Shown: positions 5,316 through 33,298, numbered from the stretch's first letter. The stretch: 47,967 bases of DNA from Campylobacterota bacterium (GCA_013153475.1 JAADEJ010000055.1:1-47967), one strand, 5' to 3'. Numbers and translations are program-made. Notes: generated by a model not told the origin, from the letters alone.

Positions 5316-6257
5316 TTAACCTTGGTGTCTGACAAATTCAATGGCCTGCAAAGCCGCGGTGGCGCCGTCGGCCGCGGCACACACCACCTGTTTGGGGGCT
5401 TCCACGCGAATGTCGCCGGCGGCATAAAGCCCCGGCACGGAGGTGCGCATACTCAAATCCACCACCACCTGGCCGCGCGCGTTCATCTCGCAAAGGAACG
5501 TACCGTCTTCCTGTTTAAGCACGGCATTGTTGACATCATACCCCACAAAGACAAAGACGCCGGGCACGCTCAAATCGCTCTCTTCGCCGCTGACGCGGTT
5601 TTTAAGGCGCACACCCTGAACACCCATGTTGTTGCCGTAAACCTCCTCGACCACCGTATCGGTGATGAAGACGATCTTTTCGTTGGCCTCGGCCCGCCTG
5701 ACGGTGGCGGGGGCGGCGCGAAACTCGCTACGGCGATGAATCAGGTAAACCCTGCTGGCGATCTCGGCCAGATAGAGCGCCTCTTCGAGCGCCGTATCGC
5801 CGCCGCCTATAACCGCCACCTCCTTGTCCCGGTAAAAGAAACCGTCACAGGTGGCGCAGGTGCTCACCCCCCGGCCAAAAAACTCCTCTTCGCCTTTAAA
5901 ACCCGCTTTTCTCGGCACGCCGCCGGTGCAGACAACGACGCTTTTGGCCGCGACCGTCTCGTTGTTGTCCAGCAGCAGGTCGAACCCATGAGAAGCTTTT
6001 TGCACCCTTACAACCTCACGCATCTCGTGTTTGAGACCAAAACGCATACACTGTTCGGGCCAGGGTGCCATCAGGTCCATACCGCTGACAACCTCTTTGA
6101 TACCGGGGTAGTTTTCTACCTCGCTGCTTTGGGTAATGGCGCCGCCGGGCATCCCCTTTTCGTACATCACCACGTTTTCCAGTCCGCCGCGGGTCGCGTA
6201 AAGCCCCGCCGTCAGACCGGCCGGGCCGCCGCCCACAATCGCCAGATCGAGCATCAT
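5316..6257 (-). CDS. trxB: Thioredoxin-disulfide reductase
   Basis: A flavoprotein that reduces thioredoxin with NADPH. FAD-binding [17 protein letters not shown] sits at the N-terminus, the redox-active CATC at about residues 137-140, an NADPH-binding [13 protein letters not shown] in the middle, and GLYAAGDIR with [11 protein letters not shown] at the C-terminal FAD site. The length of 313 residues is normal for the low-molecular-weight type. The start ATG overlaps the stop of the upstream thioredoxin-like gene (ATGA), and trxA is two genes upstream, so enzyme and substrate share an operon. Confidence 0.96.
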
Positions 6258-21756: not shown

Positions 21757-23304
21757 TCACTGCACCTTCTTCAGGATATCGTCGATGCTGGGCATCTGCG
21801 TCCCGTCGACGATTTTGGGCGTAATCACCACAATCAGCTCCACCTTCTGGGTCTCCACGCCGTTGTGGCTGAAAAGCATCTTGCCCAAAACGGGCAGATC
21901 TCCCAGAACGGGAATTTTGTTATGGGTGTTGATCACCCTTTTGCTGATCAATCCGCCAATGATCACTTTGTGGCCGTTCTTGACCTTCACGATGGAGGTC
22001 AACTGCTTGATCTTCACGTCAGGCGGCATGCTTCTGACGGAGGCATCCGTCGTCTGATCCCCGAAAATCGGAGCGAAATCCTGCTCCTCTTCGGGATAAC
22101 TCACGGTTCCCGTATTCCAGTTGCTGTCCAACTGCTCACTGACGACGGGATTGATCCGCAACAATATATACCCGTCCTCCGTCACTTCGGGAACGACGAT
22201 AAGGGTCAGTCCCACAAAGACGGATCCCAAGGCGTAGGTGTTGGTCGCGGTGGCGATGTTGTTGTAGTTGGAGACCGACCCGGTTTCGTAACGGTAGTTG
22301 ATCTGATCCCCCACGTTGATCACCGCGGGCTGGTTGTTCAGCGTCATCACTTTGGGGTTGGAGATGGTTCGGACATCGCCGTAATGCTGAAGAAAGTTCA
22401 GCAATCCGTCCATCGTGAACTGATACCCCAGCTTGTATCCGTCCGGCAGCAGAAAAGTCCCCCCTTTGCGGGCCAAACCGCGCAACTTCAGATCGAATCG
22501 CGACCAGTCCACGCCGGTGGTGTTGTTTTCGGAATAGCGCAATTCGATCAGATAGGCTTCCAGCATAATCTGTTTGTGAAGCCTTTCACTGACTTTGGCG
22601 ATATAGTCCGCCACCCTTTCGATCTGTCTTCGGGTACCCGTCACCGTCACGATACCCGCCTCCTTGTTGATCAGCGATTTGCTCTTGACCGCGTGGCTGT
22701 CCTCATCACGTTGCAGAATCTCGTCGATCTGCTCTTTGAAATTGTCCCAGAACTTGAACTCCGTAATCGTTTTGACCGTGGTGTAGTCGGAGTTGTCACC
22801 CCCCGGATTGTCACTATCCCCATTGCTATTGCGGTAGGTGCCGCTGTTTTGTCCGTAGCCGCCGTAATTGCCGTTGGCGCCGGTATTGGTGGAGGCCCCG
22901 ACGGTAATCGATTTGATCGATTCCGTCTTCATCTCGCTGAGATTGACGTAATCGACATGAAAGGAGCGGGTCTTGACGTAGGAGACTTTCAGGATTCTCC
23001 GCTCCGGGTCGTAATCGTAAAACATATTGTGCTCATGAAACAGAAAACGGAACATCTCATCGAGGGTATAGTCGCGGATATGCACGAGTCCCAGCGGTGT
23101 ACGGATCTTCTTTTTGATCTCCTTGTCTTCCATCAGCAGACTGAACTCGCAGGTCTGGGCCAGATTCGTCACGATGTCGTAAACGGTCACGGAAGCGCCG
23201 GCACCTTCGGCGGTATCAAAAGAGAAGAGTTTGTCTTTGCACAGATCGGCGGCGTGCGCCCCGATCCACAATCCCAACCAGATCACGAGCCAGCGTCTTA
23301 TCAT
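21757..23304 (-). CDS. mshL: MSHA outer-membrane secretin MshL (PilQ/GspD family)
   Basis: A 515-residue secretin that forms the outer-membrane pore of the pilus. It has a signal peptide (about 1-19), a STN-type N-terminal domain (about 40-110, GLVHIRDYTLDEMFRFLFHEH), a Gly/Asn/Ser/Tyr-rich linker at about 127-165, and N-domains with INKEAGIVTVTGTRRQIERV. The secretin core follows (VDWSRFDLKLRG, NPKVMTLNNQPAVINVGDQINY, IGGLISKRVINTHNKIPVLGDLPVLGKMLF, IVVITPKIV). The ATG overlaps the mshK stop (ATGA). Confidence 0.94.
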   Translation of the reverse strand: MIRRWLVIWLGLWIGAHAADLCKDKLFSFDTAEGAGASVTVYDIVTNLAQTCEFSLLMEDKEIKKKIRTPLGLVHIRDYTLDEMFRFLFHEHNMFYDYDPERRILKVSYVKTRSFHVDYVNLSEMKTESIKSITVGASTNTGANGNYGGYGQNSGTYRNSNGDSDNPGGDNSDYTTVKTITEFKFWDNFKEQIDEILQRDEDSHAVKSKSLINKEAGIVTVTGTRRQIERVADYIAKVSERLHKQIMLEAYLIELRYSENNTTGVDWSRFDLKLRGLARKGGTFLLPDGYKLGYQFTMDGLLNFLQHYGDVRTISNPKVMTLNNQPAVINVGDQINYRYETGSVSNYNNIATATNTYALGSVFVGLTLIVVPEVTEDGYILLRINPVVSEQLDSNWNTGTVSYPEEEQDFAPIFGDQTTDASVRSMPPDVKIKQLTSIVKVKNGHKVIIGGLISKRVINTHNKIPVLGDLPVLGKMLFSHNGVETQKVELIVVITPKIVDGTQMPSIDDILKKVQ

Positions 23305-23714: not shown

Positions 23715-24337
23715 CGGCGCGCTCCGTAATAGAGCAGCTCTATGCTGAATTTCGGCTCACCCTTTTGCGCGTCGAACCAGTACCGGTAACGGACGATCTT
23801 CATCAACGCCCCGAAACTTTCGATGTACCAGGTCAGCCTTGTGACGGCGGGGAAAGATCCCGATCCCTCCAACACCACTCTCTTTTTCTTTTCGATCAAC
23901 AAAGAGACCGCTCCCTTCTCCGCCTCGGACGAGACCGTATCGATCCGTATGCCCAGATCGACCGATCGGCGCAACACCTTCTCAAACATCTCCATGAACC
24001 GGCGGCGGTCAAAAAAGAAAAAGCGCATACCCGTCGCCTTGGTCTGAAGATATCGCACCATCGCCCGATACTCTTCGATCCGCTCCTCAAGCTTCAGATT
24101 CTCCTCCTGCGTATGGCGAATCGCTTTTCCCAACATACCCAGGGCGTTTTTTCTGATCTTCGTCTCCAACTGGGCGATTTTTCTCTCCTGCGTATCGATC
24201 TCCTCGCTCAGCGCCTCGCCCCACAGGAACCATCCCGCCGCCACGATCAGAAGTGCCGTCACGCCCGTGACGGCCCACCGTTTGGCCGGAGGCATGGCGG
24301 CCAGCTGGCTGTCGGTATTCTGCAGCAGGACGTTCAT
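23711..24337 (-). CDS. mshJ: MshJ-like (PilO-type) inner-membrane assembly protein
   Basis: A 208-residue bitopic protein. A membrane segment near residues 23-42 (WAVTGVTALLIVAAGWFLW) is followed by a coiled coil of about 60 residues (EEIDTQERKIAQLETKIRKN, and EENLKLEERIEEYRAMVRYL). A ferredoxin-like periplasmic domain ends in a strand-helix-strand pattern (GSFPAVTRLTWYIESFGALM). This is the PilO/GspM architecture of the alignment complex that links the platform to the secretin. It overlaps both neighbours by 4 bases. Confidence 0.8.
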   Translation of the reverse strand: MNVLLQNTDSQLAAMPPAKRWAVTGVTALLIVAAGWFLWGEALSEEIDTQERKIAQLETKIRKNALGMLGKAIRHTQEENLKLEERIEEYRAMVRYLQTKATGMRFFFFDRRRFMEMFEKVLRRSVDLGIRIDTVSSEAEKGAVSLLIEKKKRVVLEGSGSFPAVTRLTWYIESFGALMKIVRYRYWFDAQKGEPKFSIELLYYGARR

Positions 24338-25818
24338 CGCACGATCTCCACGACACTGCGATAGACATCTTTATCCAGGGAGATCAGGTCGGTCTGCACA
24401 CCCGTATATCCCATATCTATCAGATGCCCCATAAAACGGGCCACTCTGTCTCTCTCTTTGTAGGGAACCAGAACCTCTATCGCCATACGCTTCGAACCGT
24501 TCTGCTCCATCGAGACCGCCGATATCCGCTCTCTGGCCAACGCTTCGTCCACATCTTTTATCATCTGCCGGCGCTTCAGTTTCGACGCGACAATCAGCTC
24601 CATCACATCGGCGGCCTCATCGTAGGCGTCGATCTCCCGTTCCCCGTTTTCAACCTGTTTTCTCAACGCCTCCCGCCGCTGTCGGAGCGCTTTGAGACGA
24701 TTTTTCATCTCTGTAGCCCGCCGGGCGATTTTCCCATACTCCTTCTCCAGCCCCTGCCGTTGCTGTTTCAGGGTATCGAGCCGCCACGTCAAATAGCCTT
24801 CGCCGCCGGCGACCAGCAGCATCGCCACGGCGACCGCCGCCACGAATCTGCCCACCGCCGTACTTAAAAACGCGGGTTTTCTCTCGAATATCGTCAGATT
24901 GACCGGCTCTTCGATCCGCCCCTCCGCCACCGCCTCGGCATAACGCAGGGCGCAGCAGGTTCCCACTTCCGCTTCCGGCCACGTTCGCCCCCCGCAGGTC
25001 AAAAGGCGCTTGTCGCTCTCGGAGAAACCGTACTCGTCAAAGAGGGTCCACAATCCGGGAATTTTCCCCCCCTCGAAATCGAGATAGATCCTGTCCACGG
25101 AGGAGATGCCGAAAATTCCCCGTTTGTGATTGACGGTTTGAACGATCCGGTCGATGGCCGTCTCCAGCGCATCCCGTATCGCCGTCATGGCAAGCGACTC
25201 CTCCAGGGCGTAGGCGGAAGCGTCCAGCCCCTTCTCCGCCAACATCGCCATGATCACCGAGGGGGTCACCTGCCCTTTCAGGGCCATGGAGGCGACGGTC
25301 GGCAGGCTTCTGTGGGCGATATAACGGCCGTCTTTATACAGGAGGGCAAGGCTTTCACTCTCTCCGACTCGGACGATCAGATCGTTTCCCTCTGCCTTCA
25401 GATCACCCGAAAGGTAAAGCCCCTCGTACACCACATAGGGGATCGTGACCAGATCGATGTGTCCGATCTCCCCCGCCAGCGCGCCGTAACGTGTCTGAAG
25501 TTTTTCGCTCTCGGCGGCAAACGCCTCGACCAGCCACGCCTCTTCGTAAGAGAGGCGGTGACGGGTATAGGAGACGGCATACTCCTTCGCCACGTCAAGG
25601 CCGCTCTCCTCGAACATCGTAATCTCTACCACCGTGGCGAAACGCTCTTCCGCCGTCGAGAGAGGCAGTTTGAAGGTGTGGGAGTGAAAATCGGACGTGG
25701 GCAGTACGGTCGCGACATAACCCTTTTTCGCCTCTTTGGCCTCGCCGGGAACCTTTTTCTCCCCCTCCTGACGCCAAAGTCCACCCCGTTCGTCGATCAA
25801 CCACACCTGTTTTTCCAT
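24334..25818 (-). CDS. mshI: MshI-like protein: PilM-type actin fold fused to PilN-type segment
   Basis: A 494-residue protein. The first 310 residues or so are cytoplasmic and have the alternating strand/helix arrangement of actin-like PilM (DLVTIPYVVYEGLYL, NDLIVRVGESESLALLYKDGR, DRIYLDFEGGKIPGLWTLFDEYG). A membrane helix follows near residues 325-345 (GRFVAAVAVAMLLVAGGEGY). A coiled coil then leads to a ferredoxin-like C-terminal domain, as in PilN/GspL (RISAVSMEQNGSKRMAIEVLVPY). In Pseudomonas-type pili these are two genes; MSHA MshI is described as shorter, so the C-terminal half is notable. The ATG overlaps nothing upstream; a 35-base AT-rich gap separates it from the pseudopilin gene. 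Confidence 0.8.
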   Translation of the reverse strand: MEKQVWLIDERGGLWRQEGEKKVPGEAKEAKKGYVATVLPTSDFHSHTFKLPLSTAEERFATVVEITMFEESGLDVAKEYAVSYTRHRLSYEEAWLVEAFAAESEKLQTRYGALAGEIGHIDLVTIPYVVYEGLYLSGDLKAEGNDLIVRVGESESLALLYKDGRYIAHRSLPTVASMALKGQVTPSVIMAMLAEKGLDASAYALEESLAMTAIRDALETAIDRIVQTVNHKRGIFGISSVDRIYLDFEGGKIPGLWTLFDEYGFSESDKRLLTCGGRTWPEAEVGTCCALRYAEAVAEGRIEEPVNLTIFERKPAFLSTAVGRFVAAVAVAMLLVAGGEGYLTWRLDTLKQQRQGLEKEYGKIARRATEMKNRLKALRQRREALRKQVENGEREIDAYDEAADVMELIVASKLKRRQMIKDVDEALARERISAVSMEQNGSKRMAIEVLVPYKERDRVARFMGHLIDMGYTGVQTDLISLDKDVYRSVVEIVR

Positions 25819-25853: not shown

Positions 25854-26312
25854 TTATCTGATTATAACATAACCGCTTTGCGGCAGAACTTTAATCTCTC
25901 TCTGATCCGCGCCTTCCTGCAGAATCAGGCTCTTTGTCTCACCCAGCGGTTCGGAGACATGACTGCCGTCGTCGTGGGGACGCCCCAAACGGTCAAAACA
26001 GAGGGTCTTGCCCGCCAGATCGCCCGAGAGCGTCACATGGAGCCGGTAGGCCGCCCTGCCCGCCGTGGCGTTCTCTTCCAGCCCCTCCGCGCTCAACGTC
26101 ACACACCCCTCGTCTCCTCCCGTCTCTCCACCGTCAAAACCTCTGTGGTCAAACCCGATACCCGCGAACCGCGCCTCATCGATCTTCATCGCCACATAGG
26201 CCGCATCGTCCCGCAGATGCCTGACTTTCAGCATCTCGCTGCCCGTTTTGGCCAAAATGGCGATCAAAACGATCACGAATACCAGTTCCAGCAGCGTCAT
26301 GCCTCTTCTCAT
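25854..26312 (-). CDS. Minor pseudopilin (MshC/B-like)
   Basis: A 152-residue pseudopilin with leader MRRG and mature start MTLLELVFVIVLIAILAKTG, Glu at +5. The soluble part has two clusters typical of GspH-like subunits (DEARFAGIGFDHRGF; GDLAGKTLCFDRLGRPHD) and few cysteines. ATG at 26312 gives the same MRRG leader as three neighbours and has AAAGG 8 bases upstream; GTG at 26318 would give a GTGA overlap with the previous stop and is the alternative. Which Msh letter it corresponds to cannot be settled here. Confidence 0.85.
   Translation of the reverse strand: MRRGMTLLELVFVIVLIAILAKTGSEMLKVRHLRDDAAYVAMKIDEARFAGIGFDHRGFDGGETGGDEGCVTLSAEGLEENATAGRAAYRLHVTLSGDLAGKTLCFDRLGRPHDDGSHVSEPLGETKSLILQEGADQREIKVLPQSGYVIIR
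25861..25866 (-). promoter_or_regulatory. Possible internal -10 box (TATAATC) before mshI
   Basis: TTATAATC on the minus strand, at the extreme 3' end of the pseudopilin gene and 43 bases before the mshI ATG, in a conspicuous AT-rich patch of an otherwise GC-rich operon. No good -35 is seen. Confidence 0.3.
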
Positions 26313-26314
26313 GT

Positions 26315-26743
26315 TCACAACCTTTGCAGGGTACGCCGCACCAGACGCACACGTTGACGGCCGTCCACCGTCGCGTTGACCTCGACCCGCAACATCACGT
26401 AATACTGACTCTCCGGCGTGGTGATCCGCTCTACCGGCACGCCGCTACAATCACCGTCGTAAAGATAGTATTTCTCCACCGTCACCCGGGCGGTATAACG
26501 TTTTCCCCGACCGTCGGCCAGCGGGGGCGCTTCGCCTCCCGCCCAACATTTGCCGTCCTTTTTCTCTATCTCGAAGAGCGCCCACTCCACGGCGCTGTCC
26601 GTCATCAACTCCGCCTGCTCCCGCACATAGCCGTCCACCGTATAACGTACCCCCGCCCTCGCATAGCGGATCACTACGGTCAACAACCCCCCGACCATGA
26701 CGATAATCAACAGCGCCTGGATAATCCCGAACCCCCGTCGCAT
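26315..26743 (-). CDS. mshP: Minor pseudopilin MshP-like (PilX/GspK type)
   Basis: A 142-residue pseudopilin. The leader MRRG is followed by FGIIQALLIIVMVGGLLTVV. Position +5 is Gln, not the usual Glu, which is a feature of tip subunits of the PilX/GspK/MshP type. A Cys pair (GKCWAGG and DGDCSGV) may make a disulfide, and the KRYTARVTVEKYYL and SQYYVMLRVEVNATV strands form the fold. Its position, between MshO-like and the next pseudopilin, matches MshP. The start overlaps the mshO stop. Confidence 0.8.
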   Translation of the reverse strand: MRRGFGIIQALLIIVMVGGLLTVVIRYARAGVRYTVDGYVREQAELMTDSAVEWALFEIEKKDGKCWAGGEAPPLADGRGKRYTARVTVEKYYLYDGDCSGVPVERITTPESQYYVMLRVEVNATVDGRQRVRLVRRTLQRL

Positions 26744-27654
26744 CAGAACACCGCCTTCTGTTTGGCGACATGCACCGACCCGTCACCCCGAATGGCCCGC
26801 CGCATATCGATTTTCAGCCGCAACACGCCGTTGAGCGCCTCGGCCGAAAAAGCCGAAACGTCTTCGGCCAACACCGTGACCCGACCCGCTTTCGTCCCGT
26901 CACCGGGATCGGCGCAGAAAGTTTCACCGGCCCAAGGACGGTAACCGTAAAAGAGAAAGAGTGTCGTGTTCACGTCGGCAAGGTCCGAAAGCTCGAAAGG
27001 TGCGTCGTCACAACCGCCCAAGTCGACATCCGCACCGCGGGCCACGGCATAGGCGCCGGTGGAAAGGTAATATTTTTCATAAATGAAATCGGGCGTGACC
27101 GAATCGTTGATATCGATCGTATCGTCGGCCGAAAAAGCGACATCGTAAGCCAGCAGGCTCTCCCCGCCGTGCCATCCGAAAGCGCCGTGACACGCTTTGA
27201 CCGACTCGTCACCGCCGTCGAACGTCCCGGCGAAAATCAGGTTGTAGCCGCCCCCGTCTCCCATCGCGTCCTGGTTCAGACGCACCGCGCGTAATCGTGT
27301 CCGTGAACTGGCGTTCATATCCACGAATCCGTCGTAGTAACCGGCTATCAACCGCTCCTCATCCATACCAAGCCACTCCAGAACCCGATAACTCTCCGCC
27401 GCGTCTTCCAGGGCTTCGCAGGCGGTCGTACCGTCCTCTTTGATATACCCGATCACACTGTTGGGAATACGCTGATAGAGCAACGAGGCGATCTGATCGA
27501 GCGCCGTCTGGGAGGAGAGGGAGAGCTCCGTCACGGCCCTGGCCCGCGCGCTTTTGAGGTAGAGCGCCTCCAGCGCCTTGAAACTCCCCAGGGCCAATAC
27601 GGCGGAAACCGCCACCACCACCACGATCTCGATAAGCGTAAATCCCCGCCTCAC
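26743..27654 (-). CDS. mshO: Minor pseudopilin MshO-like (PilW/GspJ type)
   Basis: A 303-residue pseudopilin with leader MRRG and mature FTLIEIVVVVAVSAVLALGS, Glu at +5. It is long for a pseudopilin, as is typical of PilW and MshO. The soluble domain has PNSVIGYIKEDGTTACEALEDA, Asp/Gly-rich loops and FRAVRLNQ-type segments (LRAVRLNQDAMGDGGGYNLIF). Several Cys residues (ACEAL, KACHG, GGCDD, TFCAD) could form two disulfides. It starts at GTG, which overlaps the upstream stop as GTGA. Confidence 0.8.
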   Translation of the reverse strand: MRRGFTLIEIVVVVAVSAVLALGSFKALEALYLKSARARAVTELSLSSQTALDQIASLLYQRIPNSVIGYIKEDGTTACEALEDAAESYRVLEWLGMDEERLIAGYYDGFVDMNASSRTRLRAVRLNQDAMGDGGGYNLIFAGTFDGGDESVKACHGAFGWHGGESLLAYDVAFSADDTIDINDSVTPDFIYEKYYLSTGAYAVARGADVDLGGCDDAPFELSDLADVNTTLFLFYGYRPWAGETFCADPGDGTKAGRVTVLAEDVSAFSAEALNGVLRLKIDMRRAIRGDGSVHVAKQKAVF

Positions 27655-28211
27655 GGCATCGCCCTCCGATTGACGTAGGCCCAGCCGATATTGTAGGAAC
27701 GATAGACGAACGAGGTGTTGAAATCGCCGCCGAGCTGCCCGTCGCCGCTTGTCACCCGAACCACCAGCGTCTTGTCGGCGTTATCGGATGATTTGGTGAC
27801 ATTCACCGCCAACGCGTACGCCGCCCGGCCGCCGGTCGCATCGTCATGGCAGCTTCCGTCCCTGAAATCGTCCAGGTCGTCGCAATCGCCGTCGGCGGTA
27901 TCGTCGGGCCCCGTATCCGAACAGGTTCGCTGCCCTACCAGCGGCGCCGTGTCGTCGTTATAGGGTTTACCCTGGGTGCAGTTGATTTCACTGCTGGCGA
28001 GTATCGACCCGTTCTCCTCAATGGTCTTCTCGTCCCAGGCCGCTTTTCTGGCCTCTCCCAACAGCGCCACCGCGTCAAAAATCCCATCCTCTTTCAACTG
28101 GGTCTGCATTGCCTTGTTCGAGACGAAAACGATCTTGGGAACCGTCATGAAGACAAGCCCCACGATCACCATCGTAAAGATCAGTTCAATCAGCGTCAAT
28201 CCCCGTCTCAT
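27651..28211 (-). CDS. Minor pseudopilin (MshD/PilV-like)
   Basis: A 186-residue pseudopilin with leader MRRG and mature LTLIELIFTMVIVGLVFMTVP, Glu at +5; +1 is Leu instead of Phe. The middle is very acidic (DTGPDDTADGDCDDLDDFRDG) with several Cys and then beta strands (ALAVNVTKSSDNADKTLVVRVTS). By position between the MshQ-like and MshO-like genes it corresponds to MshD, but motif evidence is weak. It overlaps both neighbours by 4 bases. Confidence 0.8.
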   Translation of the reverse strand: MRRGLTLIELIFTMVIVGLVFMTVPKIVFVSNKAMQTQLKEDGIFDAVALLGEARKAAWDEKTIEENGSILASSEINCTQGKPYNDDTAPLVGQRTCSDTGPDDTADGDCDDLDDFRDGSCHDDATGGRAAYALAVNVTKSSDNADKTLVVRVTSGDGQLGGDFNTSFVYRSYNIGWAYVNRRAMP

Positions 28212-31200
28212 CGGAACAGCTTGACCCCGCTTCTGGTTTTGGGACTCTCCGTCACGTTGAAATCACTCCCCTCGTAGCCGCCGCTTAGCACCCCCCGACG
28301 ACTTCCCGCCCCCCGCAGGCGGGTATAGATGAAACAGGGATGACGGGTACAGTCGCTGTTCGAGTCGCCCGTATCGTAGAGGTAGCTTCCCCCGAATCCG
28401 TCCGGCACGAACCAGAGCCAGGAGGGAACGGCCATATGGACCACCCGCCGTTTCGGTGTCGAGTCGGAGATGACAAAATCGTTCACCCCGTCCGTCGGAT
28501 CGTCCAGTATGCCATCCAGCGTCACGTCGCCGTCCTCCGTATCGGTCAGCCGAACCCCGTCGGTTACGCGGGTCGCCGACACATGCCCCTGGCTTCCCGA
28601 ATCGTGCGCGGCGTTCAGATACCAATAAAGCGACATACGCCGCAGGTTCAACGCCGTTTTCGAATAGATCTCTATGCGGTAACGGTGGGGGGCGTCATCC
28701 AGCGTCGTGGTCAGGTCATCGGCCCGTAAACGTCCGTAATAGAACGTCGTGTTTCCCTCCAGCGTCTCGTAACCGTCGCTCTGCGCGTCACCGTCGTCAA
28801 CACCCGCATCCGTCAGATTCAGATCAAAAGGAGAGACAGGCAGGCTCGCGTTGCGGTCGAAATTGAAGTAGAAGACAAAAGCGGTCGTCCCGTTGGTATC
28901 CACCCGACTGTTGGCGGTCGAGAAGCTCGACGCCGGCATTTGCCACTTGACCGTCTCGTTCTTGCCGTAGTCCCAGTTGACGCTGCCGTTGACCTCGTCG
29001 GCGTCGCTGATCATGTACCCCAGTTTCCCGAGCGCGTCGGCATCGACGTCGGCGTGCGTCAATGAGAGGTTGATATCTTTGGCGTAGCAGACATCGATGT
29101 AGTTGGCGGTTCTCTCGTTCTGCCCGTTTTTGGCGACAATGTCGAAAACCACATAGGCCGACATATTCAGATCTTTCGAAAGATAGGTAAAGGGGCCGTT
29201 GTCAAACGAGTAGAGCGTGGCGTTGAGATCGAAATGGTGGGGGTAGAAGCGCAACGTCAACCCCGCGGGCGTGATGGAGAGGTTCTCCTCTTTGCTCCAT
29301 GTACCGTCCACATCCCCGTCATCGCAATCCACAGCCGCGAACCGATCCTCGCAGGTTACCGCCTCACTGACGTTCAGCTCCACCGATCCCACTTCACTGT
29401 AACGGGTATCTATCGACCGGTTGCCGTCGGCAAACTGCCACCCATCATCAATCGGCGGATCGAACACCCCCGTGATACAGTCGGCATCTGTTTCCCGGTA
29501 ACGCACTTCAAAACTGCCCCCTTCGGTCTCGTTGTAATCGAGTGCCGCGGCTCCGCTTCCGTCCAAAGCGCCAAAATCGAGCGTCAAAGACTCACCCGCC
29601 TTGTTCGAACCGGAAGCATTCACCGTAAAACGATCGGGTCGGACGGCAAAATTGTCACTCGAAAGTGTCCGATTGTCCTCATCATCCAAAGGACAGGACT
29701 CGTCAACATCATACTTCCAGTGGATATCGACCGAAAGATCCCCTGCCGCTTTCGAAACAGTAAAACTGACTTGCGTGACATTGTCTTCGGAAAAAAGACT
29801 CTTCTGCCAATCGGTCATTGCATGGGTAATGTCGTCGGTATAAACAACCCGACTACAGACTGTTCCATTGAAATTGGCATAATCAGAGCCGTCAAGAGAG
29901 GCCAGAGTAAGTGTGAAATTTTCGCCAATCCTTTTGGTAGAGATGTTTCTATCACTGATCGAACGGAAGTCATCCCAAACATCAAAAACCTGGTTCTCGT
30001 TAGGATTACCGCACTCCTGACAACTTCTGGCGGAACCATCCCAATTCTTGCCATCTTTTTCATTGTTGTAGATACTCTGGACATCACTCTCGTCCAACAC
30101 CCCCTCAAAAATCTTCAACTCGTCCAAATACCCAACAAAACTCTGAGCCGCGTCAAAATCACCCCCAACCGAATCCTGCTCCTGTCCAATAATCAGCGAA
30201 CCTGCCTGTACACTCAACGCTCCGGTGGGATAGTCGTCTTGACACGATACTTTACTGCCGTCAAAGTAGAGACAGGCGGTATCATCTTCGCGCGTCAATA
30301 CCAGTTGATGCCACGTGTTGTCATCAGTCTGCGTATCCAATGAAAACGACTGACTGGTATCTTTTATTTTTACCTTCACTTTATCGTTTTCGTAAAGGTA
30401 GATCTCCAGTTCATCGTCATCATCATCGTTCCCAAGCGCCTGCAAAATATCCTGCTGGCTACGGTTTTGGGCGGTTTTAAACCAAACGGCAACACTGAAT
30501 GCATCAAGACCATCCAATGCCTCATGATCCAGAAGAAGATAATCATCCGCCCCATCGTCACTCAGATCACCTACTTTGCACAACCCGTCGGTCACGGTGT
30601 TGGCACCGTGGGCCGTACCGTCATAACCATATCCCGTGCTATCTGTCACTTCCCCATCCGTACCGTTCCACTCACACTCATCCATTCGCCACTCGGCCCG
30701 CAACGTAAAATTTACCCAGCATAACAGATGACATTTGCTTCGGGTATCGGTATCGCTGATATAATTCATCGTATAGTCACCATCGTGACCGTCCCAATAG
30801 TTCTGAGCGAAATGATTCCCTTCCACTTTTGCTTTGGCCAGCTTGGTGTCCCCCCCCTCAGCATAAAAACAACTATCTTCTACATCGGAATCAGTATTAC
30901 CGGTATAAAGGTAAAGACCATAATCATCACTCGATTCGGTTTTTACACAAGTATCTCGCATATATATCCGAGTCGTATCATCATCGGATTTAAGATAAAT
31001 GGCCTTTTCGGTCTGGCTTTTGACCTGAGAGTTTTTCAAAGTCACTTCCGCTTTGACGGTGTAGATCCCCTCTGTATATCCCGATACATCCAGATGTTCA
31101 AGCTCAATCTCACCGGTTGCCTCATCTTCAAACCTGATTCCCCGCCTGTTATTCCCCGTCAAACGGCTTCCATCCACATGCAATCCGGCAATCTGTTTGT

Positions 31201-32614
31201 AAAAATGCAGGGCCGTATTTCCCGCATCAATATCCAATTGTGTCGCATTAATATCACTCGCGACACTTTCCACAAACATGATTCCATCATTCTCATTGGC
31301 ATGTATCTTAATATTTGAAAGCGTAAAATCGATATTCTCTCCGATAATGTTAAAATCGATACCATACCGTTCGGTTTCAATCAAAAGATCGGAAAATGAA
31401 ACGTCTGCATTAATATCTTTTTCAAAAACTATACCGCTCTCTTCGTCGGAATACAATTGACTTTGTCGAACCGTCAACGGCGCACTGACAATCTCCTTGA
31501 AACGGATGCCATCCTGGGAAGCCTCTATCTTCACCCCTTCAATCGTCAATGCGCTTCCCTCAACCTCCTTGTTAAACTTGATCCCCTGTTTATCGTCGCT
31601 TTTAATCTTAAGATCGGAAAAATTTCCGCCATCCAATATCCGGTTTGCAAAGTAGATACCAATATCCTGCGCATCAATCTCCAAATTTTCAATCGTTACG
31701 TCTTTATCCACATCCTCACCAAAATTGATCCCTTTACCCTCTTCTGAATGGAGCGATCCGATTGAGACGGTTACACCCTTTTCAATCACCTCCCCAAAAT
31801 ATATGGCATCACTTTGGGTCTCAAATGCAAGATTATCAAAACTTATACTATCTTTAATAGGCTCTTTAAAAGAGAAGCCTTTTCCATCATCAACATCGAC
31901 ACTGATATGGGAGAAAACGGCACTTTGTTGCACTTCACCATCAAACCAAACCGCTGAATCATTTGAATTAACAGTCAAATTGCTCATCGAAACAGCTTCA
32001 ACGCTCTTACCCAGATAAATTCCGCGCCCATCCGACGAATTGAGTACAAGGTTCTTGATTGTCAAATCGCCTTGGATCTCCTCTTCGATATCTACAGCAG
32101 TATTAACTGCCTCTATCAAACTATCCTGGATCGTCAGCCCGTCCAACGGCATATCGATACTTACGCCATGTTTTTCTGAATAGATTTTAAGATTTTCAAG
32201 AATAAGATTTTCACGCATCCGAGAGCGGATTGCCTCGCCGCCATCATCTTTTTGATTGATCGTCAGGCCACGTATCGTGATATTCTGAAGATCATCGTCA
32301 ATACGGATAATATCATCACCGGAATCATCTTCAATCTTTACATCATCCGGATCTCCCGTAGTAGATTCAAGGGTTAAATCATCTTTTTGAATTCGAAGAT
32401 CACTCTCCTCGTAGGTGTCGGGACAGATTTTTACAACATCACCGCTGGACACCACATTCAAAGCCGCCGCGATACTTCCGTATACCCCATCTCCGCTTTC
32501 GCATGGGTTACCCGTATCTTTATCAACAATCAGAGTCGCCGCCGACAACCGCAACATACCAAACAAAAACACAACCAACCACCGGTGTCGCCGAATAGAC
32601 CCTTCTTTTTTCAT
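28208..32614 (-). CDS. mshQ: Giant MshQ-like adhesin: beta-helix + LamG-like + DUF6701-like modules
   Basis: A 1468-residue secreted protein. It has a signal peptide (about 1-26), then a right-handed beta-helix from about 105 to 600 made of about 17 coils of 22-26 residues, each with a G-I-x-F motif (for example RGIYL 198, DAIYF 270, KGINF 294, DGIRF 369). A LamG-like domain of about 640-850 begins with the MshQ-typical AEWRMDECEWNGTDGEVTDS and has GYLDELKIFEGVLDESDVQSIYN. The C-terminal 600 residues resemble the MshQ DUF6701 region (LTLRFYPHHFDLNATLYSFDNGPFTYLS, then NYIDVCYAKD). No membrane anchor or sortase signal is seen. Its name rests on these modules and its gene position. The beta-helix part is markedly AT-rich compared with the rest (see findings). 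Confidence 0.8.
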   Translation of the reverse strand: MKKEGSIRRHRWLVVFLFGMLRLSAATLIVDKDTGNPCESGDGVYGSIAAALNVVSSGDVVKICPDTYEESDLRIQKDDLTLESTTGDPDDVKIEDDSGDDIIRIDDDLQNITIRGLTINQKDDGGEAIRSRMRENLILENLKIYSEKHGVSIDMPLDGLTIQDSLIEAVNTAVDIEEEIQGDLTIKNLVLNSSDGRGIYLGKSVEAVSMSNLTVNSNDSAVWFDGEVQQSAVFSHISVDVDDGKGFSFKEPIKDSISFDNLAFETQSDAIYFGEVIEKGVTVSIGSLHSEEGKGINFGEDVDKDVTIENLEIDAQDIGIYFANRILDGGNFSDLKIKSDDKQGIKFNKEVEGSALTIEGVKIEASQDGIRFKEIVSAPLTVRQSQLYSDEESGIVFEKDINADVSFSDLLIETERYGIDFNIIGENIDFTLSNIKIHANENDGIMFVESVASDINATQLDIDAGNTALHFYKQIAGLHVDGSRLTGNNRRGIRFEDEATGEIELEHLDVSGYTEGIYTVKAEVTLKNSQVKSQTEKAIYLKSDDDTTRIYMRDTCVKTESSDDYGLYLYTGNTDSDVEDSCFYAEGGDTKLAKAKVEGNHFAQNYWDGHDGDYTMNYISDTDTRSKCHLLCWVNFTLRAEWRMDECEWNGTDGEVTDSTGYGYDGTAHGANTVTDGLCKVGDLSDDGADDYLLLDHEALDGLDAFSVAVWFKTAQNRSQQDILQALGNDDDDDELEIYLYENDKVKVKIKDTSQSFSLDTQTDDNTWHQLVLTREDDTACLYFDGSKVSCQDDYPTGALSVQAGSLIIGQEQDSVGGDFDAAQSFVGYLDELKIFEGVLDESDVQSIYNNEKDGKNWDGSARSCQECGNPNENQVFDVWDDFRSISDRNISTKRIGENFTLTLASLDGSDYANFNGTVCSRVVYTDDITHAMTDWQKSLFSEDNVTQVSFTVSKAAGDLSVDIHWKYDVDESCPLDDEDNRTLSSDNFAVRPDRFTVNASGSNKAGESLTLDFGALDGSGAAALDYNETEGGSFEVRYRETDADCITGVFDPPIDDGWQFADGNRSIDTRYSEVGSVELNVSEAVTCEDRFAAVDCDDGDVDGTWSKEENLSITPAGLTLRFYPHHFDLNATLYSFDNGPFTYLSKDLNMSAYVVFDIVAKNGQNERTANYIDVCYAKDINLSLTHADVDADALGKLGYMISDADEVNGSVNWDYGKNETVKWQMPASSFSTANSRVDTNGTTAFVFYFNFDRNASLPVSPFDLNLTDAGVDDGDAQSDGYETLEGNTTFYYGRLRADDLTTTLDDAPHRYRIEIYSKTALNLRRMSLYWYLNAAHDSGSQGHVSATRVTDGVRLTDTEDGDVTLDGILDDPTDGVNDFVISDSTPKRRVVHMAVPSWLWFVPDGFGGSYLYDTGDSNSDCTRHPCFIYTRLRGAGSRRGVLSGGYEGSDFNVTESPKTRSGVKLFR

Positions 32615-32623
32615 CTCTATCCC

Positions 32624-33298
32624 TTACGTCAATACGCTCCCTGCCGCCAGTGTCAAAGCCGCCGTTTCACTGCGTAATACCAATGATGTATTCAACCCTA
32701 TTATATTCCCCTTTTCTTTAAAAAGTTTTCTCTCATCTTCCGAAAACCCCCCTTCGCAACCAATTAAAACCCGATTCGACAATGCTTTACAATCTATCGG
32801 CTCACCGCCAAAATCGAGTACGAAGCTGTCAGGATAGGCCTCAAAATAGTCTGCCAAACTTTCAAAAAGCTCCAACGCCATCAGACGGCTTCGGCCACAC
32901 TGTTGGGAGGAGTTGATCAGAATTCTCTCAAAACGGGAAAAATCGAGACGGAAGTTTTTCTGGCTACGGGCACAGTAAACGAAAGAGAGCCGCCCCACAC
33001 CCAGTTCGTTGAGCATCGGAAGGGTCTTTTCGATGGTTTTGGGATCCACCACGCACCACGCCAGGTGCAAAGGGTGTTCGGGCATGACCGGCTCGATCCC
33101 GGAAGACTCCAGACGCAAAACCGCTTCCCTTCGTCCTACGGTGTCGATCCGGTACCAAAAGAGCGTATCGTCACGCATATGCCGCAACCCGACGCGCTCC
33201 CCCCGCCGGTGTCGCCGCACCTTGAAAAGATAGCGGTAGGCCTCCCCCTCCACCGTCAACGTTTCAAGACCCGCCTCGGCATGGTACAAAAAACGCAT
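32624..33298 (-). CDS. rsmE: 16S rRNA (uracil(1498)-N(3))-methyltransferase
   Basis: A 224-residue SPOUT enzyme that methylates U1498 of 16S rRNA. The N-terminal PUA-like part includes RYLFKVRRHRRGERVGL. The knot domain has VVDPKTIEKTLPMLNELGV, RSQKNFRLDFSRFERILINSSQQCGRS, and the S-adenosylmethionine-binding IGCEGGFSEDE and LVLRSETAAL. It is full length. It ends 9 bases before the mshQ start, leaving no room for a separate promoter, so it may be co-transcribed with the pilus operon. Confidence 0.92.
   Translation of the reverse strand: MRFLYHAEAGLETLTVEGEAYRYLFKVRRHRRGERVGLRHMRDDTLFWYRIDTVGRREAVLRLESSGIEPVMPEHPLHLAWCVVDPKTIEKTLPMLNELGVGRLSFVYCARSQKNFRLDFSRFERILINSSQQCGRSRLMALELFESLADYFEAYPDSFVLDFGGEPIDCKALSNRVLIGCEGGFSEDERKLFKEKGNIIGLNTSLVLRSETAALTLAAGSVLT

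Follow-up and report, generated by a model that had tools for sequence, protein, structure and literature searches.

A low-GC3 tract and an out-of-clade tail in an MshQ-like adhesin gene of a Campylobacterota pilus cluster

Gene content of the locus and the predicted adhesin

The window, the 47,967-nucleotide stretch of DNA analysed here, is one contig of a draft genome of 1.76 Mb in 107 contigs, with a completeness of 92.5%; the host is assumed to be a species of Hydrogenimonas (Campylobacterota). A single open frame on the minus strand encodes a probable MshQ-like adhesin of an MSHA-type pilus cluster, as judged from its sequence and its neighbours (Table 1). Pilin-like genes overlap the 3' end of this gene and an MshL-like secretin is encoded 5 kb downstream; the best match of the secretin was TIGR02519, though under the cut-off of that model. 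Two small genes lie between the 494-aa pilus gene and the secretin gene. The gene order rsmE, mshQ, pilins and pilus genes is common to several congeners and to G051. A simple scan of the end of rsmE detected no sigma-70-like promoter on the minus strand. In congener G003 (L080) no mshQ tail was found after rsmE, and the region there holds a distant secretin (26% identical to that of the window) and a prepilin-like protein; judging from this sequence, the site after rsmE may host differing pilus loci.

Table 1 Features of the locus, in coordinates of the window
Feature	Position	Strand	Basis
rsmE-like 16S rRNA methyltransferase gene, upstream of mshQ	32624..33298	-	Pfam Methyltrans_RNA, E 2e-25
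Low-GC3 tract	29488..32950 (border ranges 29389-29617, 32863-33031)	-	Amino-acid-conditioned change-point fit; 45% G+C
mshQ-like adhesin gene (probable), 1468 aa	28208..32614	-	Single open frame; DUF6701 and LamG matches
Predicted beta-solenoid head, about aa 73-571	30902..32398	-	Pfam Beta_helix and NosD; AlphaFold2 model
LamG/ConA-like lectin domain, aa 687-846	30077..30556	-	Pfam Laminin_G_3, E 1.1e-19
First beta-sandwich of the tail (FDxWD...DRNISTK), about aa 873-973, low GC3	29696..29998	-	Motif conserved in alignment A1; model
DUF6701 match, aa 1122-1364 (profile 282-500 of 577), native GC3	28523..29251	-	Pfam, E 1.8e-15
Pilin-like gene overlapping the mshQ stop codon	27651..28211	-	Prepilin motif TIGR02532
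Minor pilin gene	26743..27654	-	Prepilin motif
Small pilin-block gene, hydrophobic N-terminus, weak GspK-like match	26315..26743	-	Position conserved in congeners
Minor pilin gene	25854..26318	-	Prepilin motif
494-aa pilus cluster gene, vertical marker	24334..25818	-	Groups with congeners, support 99
mshL-like secretin gene	21757..23304	-	TIGR02519 pilus_MshL, E 5e-63, below curated cut-off

The predicted protein begins with MKKEGSIRRHRWLVVFLFGML. Pfam matches in the head were Beta_helix, its best stretch at aa 353-500, and NosD at aa 471-607, and AlphaFold2 modelled the head as a long beta-solenoid (single-sequence input, mean pLDDT 77.7). The LamG domain ends at aa ~846-868. The tail was modelled as a chain of beta-sandwich domains (17-row alignment, pLDDT 80.6; residue i of the model corresponds to aa 848+i). 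A match to DUF6701 (PF20419), the domain of MshQ, was obtained at 57.6 bits against a cut-off of 27 when the tail was scanned by itself, and was missed in a scan of the full-length protein. Profile scans of the protein gave no prepilin or N_methyl match, and the class III signal of modular pilins of the PilB/PilC type was not found. Among solved structures, no relative of the head was found below E 0.001, the weak matches being beta-helix tailspikes, lyases and one secreted adhesin. Fold matches of the tail were to long multi-domain proteins with TM-scores of only 0.12-0.26, and were discarded. No second, native copy of mshQ was found in the draft genome.

MshQ has been described as a putative adhesin of MSHA pili, and surface pili are fewer when it is lost (PMC7096442). 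Its length varies greatly among Shewanella strains (PMC7439477), and exchange of mshQ between V. fischeri strains altered host colonization and host specificity (PMC4094467). Like MshQ of Vibrio cholerae, Shewanella and Aeromonas, the protein of the window has a DUF6701 match, adjoins minor pilins and belongs to an MSHA-type cluster with an MshL-like secretin, the likeness to Vibrio MshQ being that of the Pfam model only; unlike MshQ of those genera, it has a beta-solenoid head and adjoins rsmE in Campylobacterota. The adhesin of Sulfurospirillum sp. BB15 (L129, G231) also combines a beta-helix with LamG (46-47% identity) and a tail of this kind (31%), but it carries LamG twice, its G+C stays at about 27% along the whole length and GC3 shows no step. 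Modular lectin-bearing pilins are established in Streptococcus sanguinis, for example PilC, which is ConA-like and glycan-binding (PMC9934059). By analogy with PilC, the lectin module of the window protein may serve adhesion at a type IV pilus, although PilC carries a class III signal peptide and is a pilin in its own right, and the window protein has no prepilin motif. Literature searches found no papers on DUF6701 and, by title or abstract, nothing relevant on MSHA in Campylobacterota. The kind of system is thus already known, and the window is a new, well-marked Campylobacterota example.

Extent and strength of the low-GC3 tract

The N-terminal half of mshQ had been predicted to be AT-rich from five hand-counted G+C values, and these were exact (0.417, 0.367, 0.300, 0.533 and 0.617). 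The stretch is real: G+C is 45% over 3.46 kb, the shift is synonymous, and it lies far outside chance. By comparison, the lowest 3.4-kb value was 53% elsewhere in the window and 49% in 302 kb of the same genome. Within the stretch GC3 drops from about 0.72 to about 0.46, and a change-point model with two borders gained 187 log-likelihood units.

Amino-acid content, named beforehand as one of the findings that would overturn the prediction, was excluded as the cause of the low G+C by a codon test conditioned on amino acids. In this test the 887-codon head gave a z of -13.6. With amino acids fixed, all 60-codon blocks of mshQ up to codon 1020 were low (z -2.2 to -6.2), and blocks past codon 1080 were at or above expectation, with one at -0.8. 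Background codon usage was taken from 87,114 codons, including some wrong-frame ORFs that make the background wider, not narrower. The idea that long genes generally grade in GC3 from 5' to 3' was also rejected, as the head-minus-tail difference was -0.21 for mshQ, compared with a mean of -0.009 (sd 0.052) for 54 long genes of this genome.

The predicted span of 29600-32550 came near to the mshQ portion of the tract, but the tract extends beyond this gene. Low GC3 sets in at rsmE codon ~117 (90-146), about 340 bases ahead of the start of mshQ. In 50-codon windows GC3 of rsmE is about 0.7 and drops to 0.3-0.5 in the last third of the gene (0.71, 0.52 and 0.41 by successive parts). In mshQ the same windows give 0.32-0.56 to codon 1000 and 0.62-0.90 beyond. 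Nor does the change follow the domain border. The fit puts the switch at codon 1043 (range 1000-1076), ~175 codons beyond LamG and within the DUF6701-like tail, where the model has its second beta-sandwich; a border between LamG and tail falls outside the fitted range. From codon 1043 onward GC3 of mshQ is 0.75, and the remaining pilus cluster is host-like in GC3.

Head modules and tail phylogeny among relatives

Across many genomes, homologs with the same type of tail carry zero to three LamG domains and/or a beta-helix. A scan of the collection for such tails was made with a 9-row subset of the tail alignment. The head of the window has only distant and patchy relatives, with matches in 13 of the 299 genomes of the order, its own genome included; these relatives are too distant for tree building. 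No donor of the head was found, the best head relatives being 26-38% identical. The LamG domain of the window is about equally near (47-50%) to those of Sulfurospirillum BB15 and of congeners G016 and G007.

A conserved tail with a variable head in close strains had been named as the pattern that would support exchange, and the comparison available was one between species. In the closest congener pair compared (G001/G006), protein identity is 87% over the first 100 aa, 63, 28 and 59% across LamG, and 84-92% in the tail. At the DNA level the difference is a sharp-edged cassette, some 600-680 bases long and hardly alignable, between flanks about 90% identical. This pair shows the expected pattern, with LamG replaced on a conserved tail, but in G007/G016 divergence is nearly even through the head and most of the tail. 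Exchange therefore appears to be episodic. In the adhesin of G049 (L071), LamG and the first domain unit of the tail are present twice in tandem, so the start of the tail is able to move along with LamG.

In the tail tree, seven congeners formed one clade (support 100/99) and the tail of the window grouped with two Sulfuricurvum sequences (97/87). Forcing the window's tail into the genus cost 117 log-likelihood units (AU p 5e-62). By segment, grouping with the genus was rejected for aa 1044-1250, where GC3 is native (AU p 1.2e-5), and was not rejected for aa 870-1043 (p 0.15) or aa 1250-1468 (p 0.20). The tail alignment also contains indels that are common to the congeners and absent from the window. 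In the same analysis, the adhesin tail of L126 (JALUWO010000458.1), a contig binned as Candidatus Gracilibacteria, fell beside that of Campylobacterales G025 (100/99); this contig is probably mis-binned.

Unlike the tail, the neighbouring genes were assessed with quick trees, in a series of several tests. In these the 494-aa pilus protein fell within the genus, with a support of 99. The MshL tree lacks resolution and did not reject a genus clade (p 0.62). The rsmE protein is Hydrogenimonas-like, again with a genus clade not rejected (p 0.77). A foreign 3' half of rsmE was considered and set aside, as neither half rejected the genus, in weak trees. A genus clade was rejected for the pilin at 26743-27654 (AU p 0.008) and weakly for the long-branched pilin at 27651-28211 (AU p 0.04), and was not rejected for that at 25854-26318 (AU p 0.083). 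That two minor pilins lean outside the genus, as the tail does, is suggestive only, as it comes from quick trees and from several tests.

Atypical composition thus applies to the head, and tree conflict to the tail, chiefly to aa 1044-1250, where composition is native. The DUF6701-like side had been called normal, and its GC3 is indeed mostly host-like; however, it falls out of the genus clade and its first part is still low in GC3. As the part of the tail with native GC3 rejects the genus, the anchoring end has probably been replaced as well, and G+C is an unreliable guide to what is foreign.

Origin of the adhesin allele and of the tract

Taken together, these data make it likely that the binding parts of this pilus adhesin are swapped as cassettes, that the native allele gave way to one from outside the genus, and that the latest import left the tract. 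The adhesin would consist of a beta-solenoid head and a ConA-like lectin domain (LamG) on a DUF6701-like tail, which probably attaches to the pilus tip through the minor pilins encoded next to it. Homologous recombination between conserved flanks would replace its binding parts cassette by cassette. The native allele of this Hydrogenimonas species appears to have been replaced from outside the genus, with Sulfuricurvum nearest for the tail. A latest import, with codon usage like that of intermediate-G+C genomes, may then have produced the 3.5-kb AT-rich tract that runs into rsmE. Since the out-of-clade tail is mostly native in GC3, at least two events or sources, or else amelioration, are needed.

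The original prediction held that the head was acquired or is diversifying apart from the pilus-anchoring end. Its modular part is supported, by the heads that vary on one tail type and by the G001/G006 cassette, but the anchoring end probably did not stay behind. Replacement most likely extends into the tail and perhaps into the minor pilins. The tip adhesin was probably replaced as a whole, with G+C flagging only the latest piece; the composition step marks that piece at most, not everything foreign. Exchange of the head probably changes the binding target of the pilus. If this is true, environmental Campylobacterota lineages exchange the binding end of a type IV pilus whose machine they inherit. 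G+C steps within a gene can then mislead, as here a stretch of normal G+C is foreign by phylogeny and an AT-rich stretch enters a native gene. A wider version, which we put forward tentatively and regard as possible at best, is that head, tail and minor pilins are exchanged piecewise between Campylobacterota families at a fixed rsmE site, on a vertically inherited pilus machine, and that the AT-rich tract and the GC3 dip in rsmE are scars of repeated imports from an AT-richer pool.

That dip, in the last ~50 codons of rsmE, was seen in 15 of 17 Hydrogenimonas genomes, with no such trend in 13 other genomes. Composition alone is therefore no proof of foreign origin, and some of the low GC3 reflects either an old feature of this locus or the margin of repeated imports. 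As the low GC3 also enters a Hydrogenimonas-like rsmE, a portion of the tract is either older or not foreign. The tract could instead be a regional effect of mutation or selection, arising with no recent import from a relaxation of codon selection, from expression that is low or regulated, or from repair with less GC bias, even if the allele was exchanged in ancient times. Such an effect would also account for heads being lower in GC3 than tails at 20 of 22 loci (Wilcoxon p 9e-6, for loci that are related and not independent), although this asymmetry speaks for modular exchange as well. Such an effect is nevertheless rather improbable as the explanation here. The tract of the window is much longer and stronger than those of congeners, with a GC3 of 0.45 where heads of congeners similar in genome GC3 have 0.54-0.65, and replacement of a head is directly visible in G001/G006. 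The strongest head AT shifts among the 22 loci were those of the window and G051.

Compared with the host, genomes with a GC3 of about 0.36-0.57 gave a better fit to the head codons, the gain being 0.1-0.16 nats per codon. These genomes of intermediate GC3 include two congeners, so head codon usage does not name a donor. Import from a lower-G+C congener instead of another family, bringing the 3' end of rsmE along, would predict the native-like rsmE end within the tract; low-GC3 congeners exist (G015, G010 and G009), and in codon usage G004 and G015 come close to the best outsiders in their fit to the head. Such an origin is unlikely, however, as no congener examined has a similar head (at best 35-42% identity over short stretches) and the tail lies outside the genus clade.

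The position of the tail could also reflect lineage sorting, the window having retained an ancestral tail type that other congeners lost, with no transfer between families. G009, also a Hydrogenimonas, does have a tail outside the seven-member clade. Its tail is not close to that of the window, however, and by its secretin, pilus gene and rsmE the window lies near the seven congeners and not with G009, which makes sorting unlikely.

Replacement by imported cassettes is also preferred over an assembly or binning chimera joining contigs of two organisms within mshQ, which is very improbable despite the 107-contig draft and contigs that break off no more than 200 bases past rsmE in 5 of 12 draft congeners (0.23 expected), as mshQ is one intact frame, the same module order occurs elsewhere (for example in Sulfurospirillum BB15), both flanks are host-like DNA, and both composition edges are spread across tens of codons. 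Strain variation or internal repeats, such as those of G007 and G016, would account for the contig ends. In mshQ of these two congeners, LamG-coding stretches of at least 300 nt occur in pairs (L065:4191-4490 and 5583-5882; L070:3970-4269 and 5365-5664). The paired stretches within one gene are 98% and 100% identical, while the G007 and G016 proteins differ by about 20%, a pattern that suggests intragenic gene conversion or recent duplication.
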